Made by a program: the position numbers and the translations under genes. This document shows, piece after piece, positions 27,823 through 46,500 of a DNA stretch of 64,000 nucleotides. A model generated the notes under the pieces. The model searched no databases. It saw only the letters and a list, made by a program, of their open reading frames with translations, and had not been told where the DNA came from. Each line of letters starts with the position of its first letter. The first letter of the stretch is position 1. This DNA comes from Rapana venosa (taxonomy: Eukaryota; Mollusca; Gastropoda; Neogastropoda; Muricidae): positions 73,943,774-74,007,773 of the forward strand of contig CM054141.1 of assembly GCA_028751875.1 (NCBI GenBank), given 5' to 3'.

Positions 27823-28029
27823 GAGCCAGCCCAGAGTGTAGAGTTGCTGCAGCTGAGGAGGGTGAGGAGGGGGTGTTTTTCCTGCGCCACGACACCACCA
27901 TGGAGGGGTTGACTACAAACACCTGGCCCATGGCCGCTGAGGGAGCACCCCACACCCACACCTGCTTCCACACTGGTATCAACAACACCTGCACACTCAC
28001 TACTACTGACACCTACACTTCACTCACAT

Positions 28030-28467
28030 TACCACGATGCCTGTAGCAGTTCCAGGCTGCGCATGACATCATCCGGGGCTGGGGAAGAAGAGGAGGTGGA
28101 GCCATGCGGGACAGAGGATGTGATGGGAAAGCGGGGGACACTGGCCCCCCACACTGCCTCCTGTCTGCAGCAACGGGAACCAGCAGCAGCACTGCAGCTA
28201 CTTTATTGTGCGGGACATCAAAGGGCTGCTGCTGTTCCTTGCTGCAGGAGTCGCAAGCAACATGGACACTGGAGATGTTGGCACATAGTCCGTGCACACT
28301 GTATACCTGGAGCACCCTTCATGCCAAACTCAGTCACACAGTCCATTTCCGTGTCGTCACACAGTCCAGTTCTACTTTCACAGAGGTCACAGAATGAACG
28401 CCGTCACTTCCCCATTCCCCTCCTCCTTCTTGCTGGTGACAGACGTTCCATCTTCACTGAAGTCAAA
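28030..28467 (-). CDS. Candidate IRF 3' coding exons (frameshifted)
   Basis: On the minus strand a good acceptor, 'ctcccatttgcag' ending at 28,468, precedes the frame 'FDFSEDGTSVTSKKEEGNG', which continues in a shifted frame as 'SVTSVKVELDCVTT' and 'CVTEFGMKGAPG'. Nearer 28,075, a second acceptor-like 'ctcttcttccccag' precedes 'PDDVMRSLELLQAS' and a GT at 28,030. Acidic and Ser-rich composition, and the resemblance of DDVMRSLELL to the short helical segment late in vertebrate IRF1, make an IRF transactivation region plausible. Frames are interrupted and exon limits are uncertain. The stretch 27,830-28,012 has another minus-strand frame ('GQVFVVNPSMVVSW') of unknown status. Confidence 0.35.
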
Positions 28468-28559
28468 CTGCAAATGGGAGATTCCGATTTATGCCAAGGC
28501 CACAGATTCTGGGGCCCTGTGCACTGTGTTCTGTGCAAAAGCAGGCTTCACTGAGGCAT

Positions 28560-28685
28560 GTGCAGCAGGCAGGAACTGTTGCCAGCAGGCAGGAAGTGTT
28601 GCCGGCAGGGAGGGAAGTGTTGCCACAGCAGGAAGTGTTGCCAGCAGGCAGGGAAGTGTTTTCCAGCAGGCAGGGAAGTGCTCAC
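28560..28685. repeat. 20-bp degenerate minisatellite
   Basis: Five or six units of 'agtgttgccagcaggcagg'. On the minus strand the units are pyrimidine-rich, and the array lies about 100 bp upstream of the candidate acceptor at 28,468. Confidence 0.85.
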
Positions 28686-28829
28686 AATGGAGGTGATGGG
28701 TAATGTCAAGGGGGTGAAGATCCTGCAGCTGTGGTGACTGTCTGACTCCGGTCTTGATACTGACTTTTCAATGCATTTGGGTCTCCTTATCACAACCAAA
28801 TGTCCCCCTCACACCGACCTTTCTCACAG

Positions 28830-29004
28830 TCTCTGCCCCCTTGGTGCAGTGAGGGAAAAATTTGGCTGTTGGACGTGTCCTTGGCCTGAATGACAGGGAC
28901 AGGGGACTGGGCCTTGAAAGGAGTCCAGAAGGGGTGGTGAGAGCGAGAGGGCTGGGGAGGCCCCACAGTGGACAAGACGGTGGTCCCAGAAGATTTGCAG
29001 CAAG
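28830..29004 (-). CDS. Candidate IRF exon (Ser/Pro-rich)
   Basis: Two strong acceptors stand in tandem on the minus strand: 'ccccctcccttttcag' ending at 29,027 and 'tcctctcttgtcctcag' ending at 29,005. The downstream frame is open for about 60 codons: 'CCKSSGTTVLSTVGPPQPSR', later 'SPVPVIQAKDTSNSQIFPS'. Low-complexity Ser/Pro composition suits a disordered regulatory region. No domain is recognised; its link to the IRF gene rests on strand, order and splice signals. Confidence 0.4.
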
Positions 29005-29064
29005 CTGAGGACAAGAGAGGAGGACACTGAAAAGGGAGGGGGAGGGCAGGGGCCAGAGGTCAAG

Positions 29065-29586
29065 TCAGCCTGGTCTGGCCAGGACAGTGGAATCGCAGGA
29101 ACTCTGCTCTGCCAGATCACAGGGGCGGTTGTGCCGCAAAGGGGAGGGGAAAGGGCAGGGTGTCCATGCGCGCCATGTTGGCCGCTTCCAGCAAGGCCTC
29201 GAAGCCCAGCGGTTGCGAGGGCTGTCCTCGCCCCCCCCGCTCCCTGCCACTGCCGAAACGCCCACCGTCTTCCCCCCGCCCCGTCCTCCCCGGTCAGCAG
29301 TCTGCTGCCCATGCTTTTCCTCCTGGCCTGCTGGCTCTTCAGCGCCGTTTTGTCTCGCCCTTCCCTCCTCTGTCAGGAACACGGGCCTCCCGGGTGCTGA
29401 CTTTGATGGTTTTTTGCCGAGGAGGGGTCCCTGTCCTCTCCACAGGCTGCTTGTGGTCTGGCAGGGAGGAATGTCCAGGGCTTCAGCCAGGGGGGTGGGC
29501 AAGCGAGGAAGCTTAGAATTCTTCTTGGTTTTGATCACACAAACCCCCTGCCGTGTTCTGACAGATCTTTGGTCACAGACCCTCAC
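29065..29586 (-). CDS. Probable IRF exon 3' of the acidic exon
   Basis: A good acceptor, 'ttgttgctgtggttttcag', ends at 29,587 on the minus strand. Entered in phase 0, the phase in which the acidic exon ends, the sequence is open for about 173 codons: 'VRVCDQRSVRTRQGVCVIKT', 'KKNSKLPRLPTPLAEALDIP', then basic, Ser/Gly-rich sequence. Near 29,200 a different frame reads 'LGFEALLEAANMARMDTLPF', which looks more protein-like, so a frameshift error inside the exon is likely. GC content is far above the neighbouring DNA. The true end may be a donor site upstream of 29,065. Confidence 0.5.
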   Translation of the reverse strand: MRVCDQRSVRTRQGVCVIKTKKNSKLPRLPTPLAEALDIPPCQTTSSLWRGQGPLLGKKPSKSAPGRPVFLTEEGRARQNGAEEPAGQEEKHGQQTADRGGRGGGKTVGVSAVAGSGGGEDSPRNRWASRPCWKRPTWRAWTPCPFPSPLRHNRPCDLAEQSSCDSTVLARPG

Positions 29587-29619: not shown

Positions 29620-30560
29620 ACAGGGGCAAAAACTATTGGCATCAAGCTGACATTTCACTTTACAGGGGCAAATCTATTGGGATCAATGCTGACATACACT
29701 TACAGGGGGAAATCTGTTTGGCCATCAATGCTGACCATACACCTACAGGGGCAAATCTATTGGCATCAATGCGACATACACTCTACAGGAGCAAATCATT
29801 GGCATCAATGCTGACATACACTCTACAGGGGCAAATCTGTTGGCATCAATTGCTGACATACACTCTACAGGGGCAAATCTGTTGGCATCAATTCTGACAT
29901 TACACTCTACAGGGGCAAATCTGTTGGCATCAATGCTGACATACACTCTACAGGGGCAAATCGTTGGCATCAATGCTGACATACACTCTACAGGGGGAAA
30001 TCTTGGGATCATGCTGGCATAAAACTCTACAGGGCAAATCTATTGGCATCAATGTGACATACACTTTACCCGGGGGAAATTATTGGCAGCAAAGCTGACA
30101 TACACACTACAGGGCAAAATCTAATGGGATCAATGCTGACATACACTTACAGGGGCAAATCTGTTGGCATCAATGCTGACATACACTTTACAGGGGGAAA
30201 TCTGTTGGGATCAATGCTGACATTAAAACTTTACAGGGGCAAATCTATTGGGAGCAATTTCTGACATAAACCCATTACAGGCAAAAACTATTGATATCAA
30301 TGCTGACATACACTTTACAGGGGCAAATCTATTGGCAGCAATGCTGACATACACTTTACAGGGCCCAAACTTTGGCAGCAATGCTGACATACACTTTACA
30401 GGGGGAAATCTATTGCATCAATGCTGACATAACACTTTACAGGGGAAATCTGTTGGCATCAATGCTGACATACACTTTACAGGGGGAAATCTGTTGGCAA
30501 GCAATGCTGACATACACTTACCAGGGGCAAATCTCCTGGCAGCAATGCTGTCTGCATTTA
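29620..30560. repeat. 41-bp minisatellite
   Basis: About 22 units of 'tacaggggcaaatctgttgg' plus 'catcaatgctgacatacactc', with variants gggga/gggca and one- or two-base indels. It lies in the intron immediately upstream (minus strand) of the exon starting at 29,586. Nothing recognisable between 30,560 and 31,350. Confidence 0.95.
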
Positions 30561-32550: not shown

Positions 32551-32909
32551 TTGAATTGAACGTGCCAATAAGACACAAAGGCATTGATGATGATGACTAA
32601 AATTTCACACACACCCACAACAGAAAATTATTTTATTTGCAATGAAATTGGTCAAAACAAACAAAATGAGTGACAGAAATGCAGACAACCATTACTTGAC
32701 ATAATCCCAGAAGAAACAATGTCTCAAGATTTTTGGTGGAAGTGCATGACTGCGGTCCCTCCTAGCCATCCTGCCCCCTCCTCCTTGTCATCCTGTCTAC
32801 TTTTTAAAGCCAGTGTTCTCACCTTCCTGCCTTCCCATTCTGACGGCGTAGTCATGGTCAGACTGTGGGATCACATAGATCTCTCTGTACTGGGCCTCCT
32901 CATCCGTAT

Positions 32910-33800
32910 TCTGCACACACACATCAAACACCTGTATTATACACACATCAAACACCTGTATTATACACACATCAAACACCTGTATTCTGACAACACAACA
33001 CACACACATCAAACACCTGTATTCTGCACACACACAACACATCAAACACCTGTATTCTGCACACACACACACACATCAAAACACCTGTATTCTGCACACA
33101 CACATCAAACACCTGTATTCTGCACACACACACAAAACACACACACATCAAACACCTGTATTCTGCACAACACCCACACTACTCACAAATACAAAAACAC
33201 CTCTATTCTGCACACACACACACATCAAACACCTGTATTCTGCACAACCACCTACACACATTAAACATGCTTCTACTCACTCTAACCCTGTAAATCTCCC
33301 TCCTCACATCAACACTTATCTGCACCTCACAACACTGACCACACACACAAAATCAAACCTACTCCACAAACATTTAAAAACGCTGGGATTACTGTACACA
33401 CCCACACTAGTCAACCTGACTGACCATTCCAGACATCCACGAAACAATTCATCAACACCACTGTAATTGAAATCCCACAGACACATTCAAACACCTGTAT
33501 TCTGCACACAACCACACATCAACACCAATGTATCTGCTCACACAACACACATCAAAACACCTGTATATCACAACACACAATCAAACACCTGTATTCTCAC
33601 ACACACACATCAAACACCTGTATTCTGCACACCACACACCACACACATATCAAACACCTGTATCTGCACACACACACACATCAAACACCCGTATTTGCAC
33701 AACACATCAAAACATCTGATATGCACACACACACATCAAACACCCGTATTCTGCACACACACACACATCAAACACTGTATTCTGCACAAACCACCCTAGT
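32910..33800. repeat. CA-rich tandem repeat (ATCAAACACCTGTATTCTGCA unit)
   Basis: Units of 'atcaaacacctgtattctg' separated by variable (CA)n. The array is interrupted at 33,255-33,475 by a degenerate L2 segment and then resumes, suggesting that repeat and L2 flank were duplicated together or misassembled. Frames here are artefacts. Confidence 0.9.
33255..33475 (+). pseudogene. Short degenerate L2 segment
   Basis: 'attaaacatgcttctactca', 'ctccctcctcac' and 'ctgactgacc' match, with many gaps, the start of the L2 copy at 33,805. Much more eroded than its neighbour. Confidence 0.55.
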
Positions 33801-33804
33801 TCCA

Positions 33805-35165
33805 CCTTAAACATGTTTCTACTTGCTTCTGATCAGTGAAAATCCCCTCCTCACTCTACTTGATTTAAATCTGCACCCTTTCGACACTATTGACCACTCT
33901 ACCCTTTCTCTCCCGTCTTCAAAAAACGTTTTGGCATTACTGGTACAGCCCTACCGGTTTAGGTCATACCTGACTGACCCGATTCCAGACAGTCACAGAA
34001 ACAAGATTCAGTCAGTCCCTGCCAGACGGGAATGTGGAGCCCGCAGGGATCATTTTCTGGCCCTGTTCTTTACTCTCAAACACGCTCCACTGTCACATAA
34101 AATTTAAAAACGTCATCACCTTTTATGCAGATGACTCTCAGATTCTAAGCAGTGACAGTCCTGAAAATCTGTCTTCTCTTTTGATAAATATGGCCTACTG
34201 CTTTCAAGATATCCAAAACTGGATGATAGAGAACAAGTTACAACTAAATGCTGAAAAACTGAAGCCATGCTTGTAGGGACCAAAAACAAACTCCTTTCCA
34301 TTACAACAGCTTCAATAAAATTTTCGGAAAGGGCATCAGTCCCTCTATCCACTGCTGAAAAGTATTAGGGGTCATTATTGACAACACACTCTCATGCAAA
34401 AATTCATCACCCAAAACCTCCCAGCCCCTGCTTCTATCAATTACGGCGTATTAGTGCAATTCAAAAGTCCCTGTCCACAGATGCAAAAATCAAAACTCGT
34501 GGCATCTCTCATTCTTTCATGTCTGGACTATTGCCCAAATTTTCTTTTGGCTGGTCTGCCAGCATCATCTATTCCACTCCCCTTTAACGTAATTTAAAAC
34601 TCTGCAGCTCGACTAGTCCTCAGAAAGAAAAAATCTGAGCACATTACCCCTCTCTTGCGATCTCTCCACTGGCTGGGCCCGTGCCACAAAGAAAAACGAC
34701 AAGATCAGTACCCTCTTTACAAATGTCTCCACAAAACAGCACCCTCCTACCTCTGTGAATGTCTTTCCACCTGTACACCCTTCTCGTTCCCTTCACTCTG
34801 CTGCAGATTACTTGTGCTTACAAATACCTAGATTCAGCCAGTCCACTGTTGGCCGTCGCTCTTTCTCTGTTTTGGTCCATTGATTTGGAATGGCCTCTCT
34901 AATCTCTCTTCGCCAAAGACCTTCTTGTGACACTTTAAATCTGGCCTCAAGACATATTTTTTTCAAACCTAAAATTCTCTCCTGTTTCATTTCATAGCTA
35001 TCCCTGCTTTTCAACAGCCAAAGATTTCCATCACCCTGCCAAAGTGTATACGGGGGTGTTTTGTGTGTGTGCTTTGGACTTGTTAGAACTATTACTTGCT
35101 ATTGGGTTTCATGACTGTGTAAAAATGAGTTGAGGCAAGCGCTTTGATTTGTCTGTGCAAGATAC
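33805..35165 (+). pseudogene. L2-like LINE, RT palm to 3' end
   Basis: Follows the 37,197 element from its 'TLLLASD' block to the 3' end. Readable blocks: 'LLDLNLHPFDTIDHSTL' near 33,850, 'GPVL' region near 34,060, 'ITFYADDSQILSSDS' near 34,125 (catalytic YADD intact), 'IQNWMIENKLQLNAEK' near 34,210, 'SGLLPKFSFGWSASI' near 34,520, and the terminal 'caagcgctttgatttg'. Several frameshifts. It lies in an IRF intron, antisense to the gene. Confidence 0.9.
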
Positions 35166-36191
35166 AGCGTATGTTAGTTCCAGATATTTATTCACGTTGT
35201 CTGTCCACAGGACATCACCTGTCTGTTCGTCCACAGACTCACCTGTCTGTCTGTCCATAGACTACCATGTATGTCTGTCCAGAGTGTCCATTCTGTCTGT
35301 CCACAAGTGTACTACTGCTGTCTGTGTGTAGTGGTGTGTGACTACATGTATGTTGTCCAGATGACTCACCATGTATGTCTGTCTGCAGTGACTCACCATG
35401 CTGTTGTCATGCAGTGACTCACATGTAGTCTGCTTCCCGGGACTCACATGTCGTTGTCTGTCGCAGTGACTCACCATGTCTGTCTGTCCGCGGTACTCAC
35501 TGTAGTCTGCCCGCAGTGATCACCATTTGTCAGTCTGTCCCAGTGACTCCGTCTGTCTGCCACAGTGACTCACACTCTGCTCCCAGCGATACATGTCTGT
35601 CTGCCCACAGTGACTCACCATGTATGTTGCCCCGTGACTCGCCATGTCTGTCCCACAGTGACTCACATGTTGCCACAGTGACTCACCATGTTGTCCACAG
35701 TGACTCACCATGTCTGTCCACAGTGACTCACCCTGTCTGTCTGTCCACAGTGACTCACCCTGTCTGTCTGTCCACAGTGACTCACCCTGTCTGTCTGTCC
35801 ACAGTGACTCACCATGTCTGTCTGTCCACAGTGACTCACCCTGTCTGTCTGTCCACAGTGACTCACCATGTCTGTCTGTCTGTCCACAGTGACTCTCCAT
35901 GTATGTCTGTCCACAGTGACTCACCCTGTCTGTCTGTCCACAGTGACTCACCCTGTCTGTCTGTCCACAGTGACTCACCATGTCTGTCTGTCCACAGTGA
36001 CTCACCATGTCTGTCTGTCCACAGTGACTCACCCTGTCTGTCTGTCCACAGTGACTCACCCTGTCTGTCTGTCCACAGTGACTCACCATGTCTGTCTGTC
36101 CACAGTGACTCACCATGTCTGTCTGTCCACAGTGACTCACCATGTCTGGTCCACAGTGACTCACCATGTCTGTCTGTCCACAGTGACTCAC
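35165..36191. repeat. 27-bp minisatellite made of repeated splice-donor sequence
   Basis: About 38 units at roughly 27 bp; the 18 or so nearest 36,191 are almost identical and the rest degenerate to the left. Read on the minus strand, a unit is 'GTGAGTCACTGTGGACAGAC' plus 'AGACAGG' or 'AGACATG', so each unit starts with a consensus 5' splice site (CAGG or ATG, then GTGAGT). The first unit starts exactly where the acidic IRF exon ends. On the plus strand the same unit ends 'tctgtctgtccacag', which looks like a 3' splice site. Frames stay open on both strands because 27 is a multiple of 3. Confidence 0.95.
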
Positions 36192-36358
36192 CCTGTCATC
36201 AGAATCAGCGTGCTGAGAACTGCTGTCTTCAGACAGTTCCACAGTGGCTTCCTCCTCCACACTCTCCTCCTCCTGCTCCCCCAGCAGGTCAGCTGTCACT
36301 GCCAGGTCAGGACTTGGTTCTGGTATTGACCAACGATATTTACCATCAACCAGGTTGT
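36192..36358 (-). CDS. Probable IRF acidic exon
   Basis: On the minus strand the frame opens after an AG at 36,360-36,359: 'NLVDGKYRWSIPEPSPDLAV', then Glu/Asp/Ser-rich sequence ('EQEEESVEEEATVELSEDSS') ending 'HADSDDR' at a perfect donor, AGG then GTGAGT. Length is 167 bp: two bases completing a codon plus 55 codons, so it enters in phase 1 and leaves in phase 0. Phase 1 matches the donor of the DNA-binding exon at 45,185; phase 0 matches the acceptor at 29,587. Acidic regions after the DNA-binding domain are usual in IRF1/2-type proteins. The acceptor's pyrimidine tract is weak. There is no gene in 36,360-37,110. Confidence 0.6.
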
Positions 36359-39773: not shown

Positions 39774-40068
39774 GGGGACGGGATAGCTCAGTGGTCGGAG
39801 CACTCGCTTTCCCCCAGCCAAGTTAAGCAGCGTCGAGCGTGGTTACCAGTTGGATGGGTGACCGTTTGCGCGCCTTGGCTTCAGTACAGTTCCCCCAGTT
39901 CACCCAGCTGTAAATGGGTACCTGCCCTCATTAGGGTCAGGGAAGGTAAAGCAGCGAGGGAGAGGAGATGAACGCCGCCCTTAATATGCTGGCCCTAGAG
40001 AAGTGAGGTCTCTGACGCCTCGCTCCCCTACGACCTTATAGGTTATGGGACTCCTTTACCTTACCTTT
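39774..40068 (+). mobile_element. Chimeric tRNA/5S rRNA-headed SINE (best copy)
   Basis: Starts with a tRNA-like 5' part, 'gggacgggatagctcagtgg', including an A box. From about 39,820 it continues 'aagttaagcagcgtcgagcg' and 'ttggatgggtgaccg', which correspond to the internal promoter region of animal 5S rRNA (box A, intermediate element, box C). A core 'cagctgtaaatgggtacc' and a body ending 'ccttataggttatgggactc' follow. TATCC is repeated on each side (39,769-39,773 and 40,069-40,073), and the paralogous site at 43,408-43,687 lacks the insertion. Other copies are at 41,424 (minus) and 59,530 (plus). Confidence 0.9.
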
Positions 40069-45184: not shown

Positions 45185-45391
45185 CGGCGGCAGGCTTGGT
45201 GGCGCCAGGCTTGCGCTTGAGGTGGGTGGCCACCTCGTGGGGCTGCAGGAAGCGGTAGGTTCTGTTGGCGTTGTGGCCGCGCCGCTCCACCGGGTCCGTC
45301 AGCTCCCGCACGTCCGGCAGGCTGTGCAGGGCGCAGCGGAAATTGGCTTTCCATCGCTTGGGCTCCGGTTCATCTCCATCCTTGTAGATGC
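45185..45391 (-). CDS. Interferon regulatory factor (IRF), DNA-binding domain exon, C-terminal half
   Basis: Minus-strand frame 'IYKDGDEPEPKRWKANFRCA', continuing 'LHSLPDVRELTDPVERRGHN' and 'ANRTYRFL', matches the second half of the IRF winged-helix domain. It includes the last conserved Trp, recognition helix 3 (WKANFRCA..SLPD, as in IRF1/2) and the closing Y-R-hydrophobic strand. IRFs bind GAAA-type response elements and drive immune and antiviral gene expression. The exon is 207 bp, enters in phase 1 after an AG at 45,393-45,392 (where HTG|R splits in the family), and leaves in phase 1 at a GTCAGT donor. A basic tail ('HLKRKPGATKPAA') follows the domain. A His replaces the usual DNA-contacting Asn of helix 3. 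The first half of the domain was not found in the window. Confidence 0.9.
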
Positions 45392-46000: not shown

Positions 46001-46500
46001 NNNNNNNNNNNNNNNNNNNNNNNNNNNNNNNNNNNNNNNNNNNNNNNNNNNNNNNNNNNNNNNNNNNNNNNNNNNNNNNNNNNNNNNNNNNNNNNNNNNN
46101 NNNNNNNNNNNNNNNNNNNNNNNNNNNNNNNNNNNNNNNNNNNNNNNNNNNNNNNNNNNNNNNNNNNNNNNNNNNNNNNNNNNNNNNNNNNNNNNNNNNN
46201 NNNNNNNNNNNNNNNNNNNNNNNNNNNNNNNNNNNNNNNNNNNNNNNNNNNNNNNNNNNNNNNNNNNNNNNNNNNNNNNNNNNNNNNNNNNNNNNNNNNN
46301 NNNNNNNNNNNNNNNNNNNNNNNNNNNNNNNNNNNNNNNNNNNNNNNNNNNNNNNNNNNNNNNNNNNNNNNNNNNNNNNNNNNNNNNNNNNNNNNNNNNN
46401 NNNNNNNNNNNNNNNNNNNNNNNNNNNNNNNNNNNNNNNNNNNNNNNNNNNNNNNNNNNNNNNNNNNNNNNNNNNNNNNNNNNNNNNNNNNNNNNNNNNN
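46001..46500. other. Assembly gap (500 N)
   Basis: Exactly 500 N, so its size is probably a placeholder. L2 linker lies on the left and poly-C/(CT)n on the right, so the gap probably sits in repeat DNA. Confidence 0.99.

Follow-up and report, generated by a model that had tools for sequence, protein, structure and literature searches.

Here we describe a minisatellite of tandem splice donors at exon 3 of an IRF gene in the neogastropod Rapana venosa, and we consider it quite probable that this array is a junction-spanning minisatellite, or 'mirage', which arose by duplication across exon-intron junctions and expanded neutrally on the intron side, while splicing continues to join position 36,192 to position 32,910. 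The window, by which we mean the whole 64,000-nt stretch of DNA that was analysed, corresponds to C8:73943774-74007773 in a 2.28-Gb genome, and the IRF gene lies on its minus strand. A second array, composed of tandem splice acceptors, adjoins exon 4 at the other end of the same intron, and a third opens at the donor of the first DBD exon of what is probably the same gene, on another scaffold.

The preliminary description of this DNA had named the gene as an IRF, and a genome-wide Pfam search bears this out. PF00605 was matched four times: by the first half of the DBD on scaffold C1, by the second half in the window on C8, and by both halves on C2. The window match, in exon 2, scores 37.7 bits against a cut-off of 27 and the first half on C1 scores 57.4 bits, so that both halves of the DBD stand above the cut-off that marks the family; the same search found no first half on C8, the scaffold of the window. 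Exon 2 (45,185-45,391, minus strand) covers profile positions 56-104, has 53 of 61 aligned residues identical to residues 107-167 of the Babylonia areolata protein P0124, and would end in phase 1 at CCG|GTCAGT. Residues 38-105 of P0124 match the DBD exon on C1 at 65 of 68 positions, compared with 53 of 68 for P0126, a protein of the C2 type, and because of this similarity to P0124 we assign the C1 exon to the window gene as its exon 1. The phases of the two pieces agree, and runs of 500 N lie near both of them, the one upstream of exon 2 at 46,001-46,500. On this sequence evidence the simplest reading is that the C1 and C8 exons are probably one gene split between scaffolds; they may also be two separate loci. 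The gene on C2 is a paralog, whose exon 1 is closest, among five proteins compared, to that of Nucella lapillus (66 of 68 residues identical).

Downstream, exon 4 (32,823-32,910, minus strand; NTDEEAQYREIYVIPQSDHDYAVRMGRQE) ends at the donor GGAAG|GTGAGA and has 24 of 28 residues identical to residues 204-231 of P0124. Exon 5 (27,854-29,586, minus strand) is approximate, with a provisional start, and was delimited by tblastn pieces against P0124 at 29,582-29,156 and 27,931-27,854, some of them weak, which fall in frames -3, -2 and -1 and contain stops. Exons 1, 2 and 4 are well conserved relative to P0124. The frame changes in exon 5 are due either to base-level errors in the consensus or to decay of the gene, and they bear on whether the gene is functional.

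The position of the splice junction after exon 3, the acidic exon (36,192-36,358, minus strand), is established by homology. On the minus strand the exon ends ...GATGACAGG|GTGAGT with 36,192 as its final base, and the earlier placement of its end there, in AGG|GTGAGT, is backed both by the C2 paralog and by the orthologous P0124. A tblastn search with the acidic exon against 60 kb around the paralog found the homologous exon, SEDSGSQQADSDER, which is short, has the acceptor TTTGCAG and the donor AGG|GTAAAC, and terminates ...GATGAGAGG|GTAAAC; the local DNA alignment with the window stops at that GT, and the intron between exons 3 and 4 of the paralog is at the same place as in the window gene. 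A protein search with a gene-length query, restricted to about 508-1615 aa, gave 20 proteins with P0124 (899 aa) at the top, and the gastropod relatives found in it measure 876-1413 aa. Residues 180-203 of P0124 match exon 3 at 16 of 24 positions and the match to exon 4 begins at residue 204; since no residue lies between the two matches, exon 4 follows directly after exon 3 in the gene model of the ortholog. The words VSHC, SHCG, HCGQ, CGQT and GQTD of the peptide that the repeat would encode occur in none of 22 IRF-like proteins (P0122-P0143).

The upstream end of exon 3 is uncertain. Six AGs fit the phase deduced from exon 2, giving starts at 36,358, 36,319, 36,298, 36,292, 36,247 and 36,226, and in each of these candidate acceptors at most 9 of 16 positions are pyrimidines. 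Exon 5 had been considered as the direct splice partner of exon 3 and was ruled out when the Babylonia protein showed exon 4 between them. A doubt over whether the acidic exon belongs to the gene at all was likewise dropped: it came from a search (2 matches among 165 candidates, neither of them aligned to the exon) with an upper length limit of about 661 aa, whereas the ortholog is 899 aa long. Outside the DBD, vertebrate IRFs gave no match in the comparison made.

The donor array extends over the junction of exon 3 and its intron from 35,198 to 36,197 (minus strand; TRF, 27 bp x 39.0), with a clean portion at 35,732-36,197. The array does adjoin the exon, as the preliminary description had it, but it does not begin exactly at the boundary, for as many as 6 nt of the exon are included in the unit; and the interval 36,192-36,358, which that description singled out in one place, is exon, whereas the array goes down to 35,198. 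The last six nucleotides of exon 3 (GACAGG) are repeated before 8 of the 28 later GTGAGT sites, and the remaining 20 share 0 or 1 nt with the exon end. Altogether there are 29 exact GTGAGT between 36,191 and 35,242 on the minus strand, spaced mostly by 27 bp in the right half. With a donor matrix of what we take to be human frequencies, 27 of these 29 reach at least 7 bits, and one other site brings the total in the array of about 1 kb to 28, against 88 in the other 63 kb or so of the minus strand. The dozens of near-consensus donors proposed to follow the exon are thus present, and further details of that proposal hold as well: the first 11 donors, which would add 0-267 nt, are in phase and open; the next six, after a 31-bp unit, are out of phase as predicted; and the plus strand of the unit reads TGTCTGTCTGTCCACAG, a pyrimidine tract followed by CAG. 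The array has 18 donors beyond these; 9 of them are out of phase and 7 come after a stop, which leaves 4 in phase and open. The reading frame of exon 3 stays open into the array as far as 35,523, and a Pfam search with the repeat ORF gave four matches, all under the cut-off.

The right part of the array, 35,732-36,197, is close to perfect, with 451 matches, 11 substitutions (9 of which are the CAGG/CATG variant), 4 insertions and 3 deletions. Within it, a 108-bp block of four units starting at 36,140 is exactly equal to the 108 bp from 36,032, which hints at recent turnover, as seen in one haplotype.

The intron that begins here, 36,191-32,911, is made up of the donor array, a retrotransposon fragment and the array of tandem acceptors, (TG)nCAG|AATACAGGTGTTTGATG, which, with TRF rows as evidence, spans 32,911-33,788 on the minus strand and adjoins exon 4. 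The fragment (33,788-35,188, plus strand) is reverse-transcriptase-like, of a family that we presume rather than establish, and shares 87% identity with a copy close to the C2 paralog. Elsewhere in the window, at 39,778-40,000, lies a repeat that presumably resembles a 5S-rRNA-derived SINE. Exon 4 starts at 32,910 as CAG|AATACGGATGAGG, so that its junction motif is TGCAG|AATAC. The first five nucleotides of the exon, AATAC, recur in 15 further copies between 33,781 and 32,938; 11 of these stand after CAG, one after another AG, and three, including the two closest to exon 4, have no AG before them. The first seven nucleotides of the exon are repeated once. Units measure 24-43 bp between 33,162 and 32,938, and those listed contain TTTGATG or TTTTGATG, a feature that the listing pattern itself required; we take either motif to fit a branch point. 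A garbled piece of the retrotransposon, near 33,204-33,454, interrupts the acceptor array.

The exonic share of the repeat unit is clearest at exon 1 on C1 (L011:9402-9907), where an array of 12.6 copies of a 40-bp unit starts at the donor CAG|GTAATC. Leaving variant copies aside, the array contains 9 further exact CAGACACACAGGTAA sites, of which 7 are preceded by 20 nt of the exon and 2 by 11 nt. The stretch encodes part of KWARHT, which is common to P0124, and we therefore take the exon to be the source of the repeated stretch. Exon-derived nucleotides in the units are thus strong evidence for exon 1 and weak for exons 3 and 4. In 60 kb around the C2 gene, filtered arrays occur from 23.7 kb onward, and none stands beside exons 1-5. 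Scaffold C1 also carries, at L015:5710-6741, an 86-bp x 12 array whose unit combines a strong donor motif with an acceptor-like motif, CTTTGCAG, on the opposite strand; no exon beside it was recognised by eye in the ORF list.

Two calculations address chance. When the 14 arrays of the window were placed at random, at least two of six junctions had an array end within 8 nt in 0.126% of 200,000 trials, and at least one had it in 4.3%, in a test where one of the two coincidences is the exon 3 finding that served as the starting point, the exon 3 acceptor was left out, the exon 5 acceptor is provisional, and the second array end is 32,917 from a TRF row, with just one junction counting under the stricter row, 32,967. 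In the second calculation the donor motifs of 32 arrays in about 187 kb were compared with mononucleotide shuffles. Two arrays gave p of at most 0.05 and none gave p of at most 0.01; the 27-bp array was one of the two (p = 0.012), and the exon 1 array was not significant (p = 0.098). General enrichment was absent, and therefore there is no sign that the local arrays are as a rule donor-derived.

The preliminary description had offered an expansion of the donor region as one explanation, and this is well supported here and can be specified as a junction-spanning minisatellite with a counterpart in amphioxus. A short segment straddling the exon 3 donor would have been duplicated in tandem, and slippage or unequal exchange would then have added further copies toward the intron. 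The same process would have shaped the acceptor of exon 4, at the far end of this intron, and the DBD exon 1 donor of probably the same gene. Selection would keep the outermost, authentic junctions, and the extra copies would therefore be intron that turns over neutrally, with normal splicing expected to join 36,192 to 32,910. That the arrays would leave normal splicing intact is most likely by analogy, because this is the behaviour reported for the amphioxus mirages. Two of the features by which a mirage is known are present: all the arrays have splice signals (GT or AG) in their units, and exonic and intronic sequence are combined in the units at exon 1, more feebly so at exons 3 and 4.

A related explanation, which we judge unlikely, is that these are ordinary minisatellites of the intron, grown without relation to the junctions and halted at the exon edges by selection against encroachment. 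The window is rich in tandem repeats, with 84 TRF rows when microsatellites and overlapping rows are counted. One of them, a 40-bp x 22.7 minisatellite in the intron after exon 4 (29,620-30,550, minus strand), stops some 30 nt upstream of the provisional acceptor of exon 5 and does not span that junction. At exons 3 and 4 the stretch of exon shared with the units is short, and these two arrays, taken alone, could indeed have arisen within the intron and extended as far as the junction. However, encroachment from the intron does not account for the 20 nt of exon that recur in the exon 1 array, and because of this array duplication across the junction is the better reading for the gene.

Quite unlikely, in our estimate, is the use of the tandem donors or acceptors by the spliceosome, yielding IRF isoforms that differ by 9-residue repeats in a repertoire that varies between alleles. 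The arithmetic is on the side of such isoforms, with 28 donor-like sites of at least 7 bits, the first 11 of them in phase and open, and with 12 upstream AATAC copies behind an AG in units that have a putative branch-point motif. To this extent the length-variable isoforms suggested earlier have a basis; but their use is doubtful, for in the nearest ortholog exon 4 is joined straight to exon 3 and the repeat peptide is absent, and most of the donors after the first 11 are out of phase or behind a stop. Mirages in amphioxus are reported to leave regular splicing undisturbed (PMC3087553). More doubtful still is a combined version, in which the two arrays of intron 3 act together and many donors, paired with many acceptors, produce a heritable repertoire of length-variable IRF isoforms with 9-residue and acceptor-side repeats. 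If this were true, minisatellite turnover would be turned into protein diversity in an immune regulator.

It is very improbable that the array, or its copy number, is the product of a bad consensus, although part of the intron is poorly assembled. In a three-way alignment, the window copy of the retrotransposon at 33,788-35,188 has 34 private indel events and 88 private substitutions, compared with 5 and 44 in the C2 copy and 9 and 221 in a second window copy. A garbled second copy of the border between array and retrotransposon lies near 33,204-33,454. The left half of the 27-bp array (35,198-35,731) counts 67 deleted positions over its 534 bases, compared with 3 over 466 in the right, and is probably also poor consensus. 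The region of about 33.2-35.7 kb thus looks like error-prone, unpolished consensus, and array lengths and copy numbers within it are uncertain for that reason. Against an artefact, the right part of the donor array is nearly free of such defects, and similar arrays stand at two other junctions.

We consider it extremely improbable that the repeats are maintained as a cis-regulatory element bound by AP-1, or as dozens of U1 sites that protect a long intron. The unit core GTGAGTCAC contains TGAGTCA, which we take to be the AP-1 heptamer; it occurs 26 times in the array and 9 times elsewhere in the window on both strands, and in the left half the 9 positions of the core have 4 substitutions compared with 33 in the other 18. 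This left half is, however, the part of poor consensus, the intron start of the C2 paralog lacks the heptamer, and TGAGTCA comes free with the duplication because it overlaps the donor consensus. The extra donors may also act as a buffer against donor loss, and no result here favours buffering.

The closest known systems are the amphioxus 'mirages', which are described as exon-intron boundaries duplicated in tandem, in the manner of minisatellites, in Adh3 and in the globins BflGb6 and BflGb9, with similar repeats in TnC and PGBD5 (PMC3087553; PMC3902484). Data on Adh3 and RT-PCR of the globins suggest that these repeats do not disturb regular splicing, even though AG/GT is present in many units (PMC3087553). 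The Rapana arrays resemble mirages in that their units extend across a splice junction and often contain AG/GT, 5' and 3' boundaries can both be affected, units are homogenised within a cluster, and the loci are prone to wrong assembly. They differ in having a mollusc as host, in unit length (24-43 bp here, against 10-72 bp in Adh3 and about 150-160 bp in the globins), in the high copy number of near-consensus donors, and in occupying both ends of one intron together with a third junction of probably one gene, the exon part being short in two of the three cases. Where introns are gained by tandem duplication around AGGT, extra splice signals likewise arise through duplication of AG|GT (PMC4974935); in contrast, no new intron has appeared here, the C2 paralog having an intron at the same place. 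The minisatellites of earthworm metallothionein were considered as a parallel and led nowhere, the accessible portion of that report not describing them as junction-spanning (PMC12783039).

In the open-licence literature we recognised no report of junction-spanning minisatellites outside cephalochordates, the only papers being those on amphioxus; earlier reports may exist. The arrays of the window gene would be a further case of the mirage type, a kind already known from amphioxus, now in a neogastropod, and the presence of such minisatellites at three junctions of probably one gene suggests that cephalochordates are not alone in this process. That the spliceosome should prefer the outermost donor in a series of at least 17 clean, near-identical ones is not a trivial matter. 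The arrays offer a natural setting in which to test its choice among many such donors in succession, and a concrete path for the lengthening of introns from their ends.
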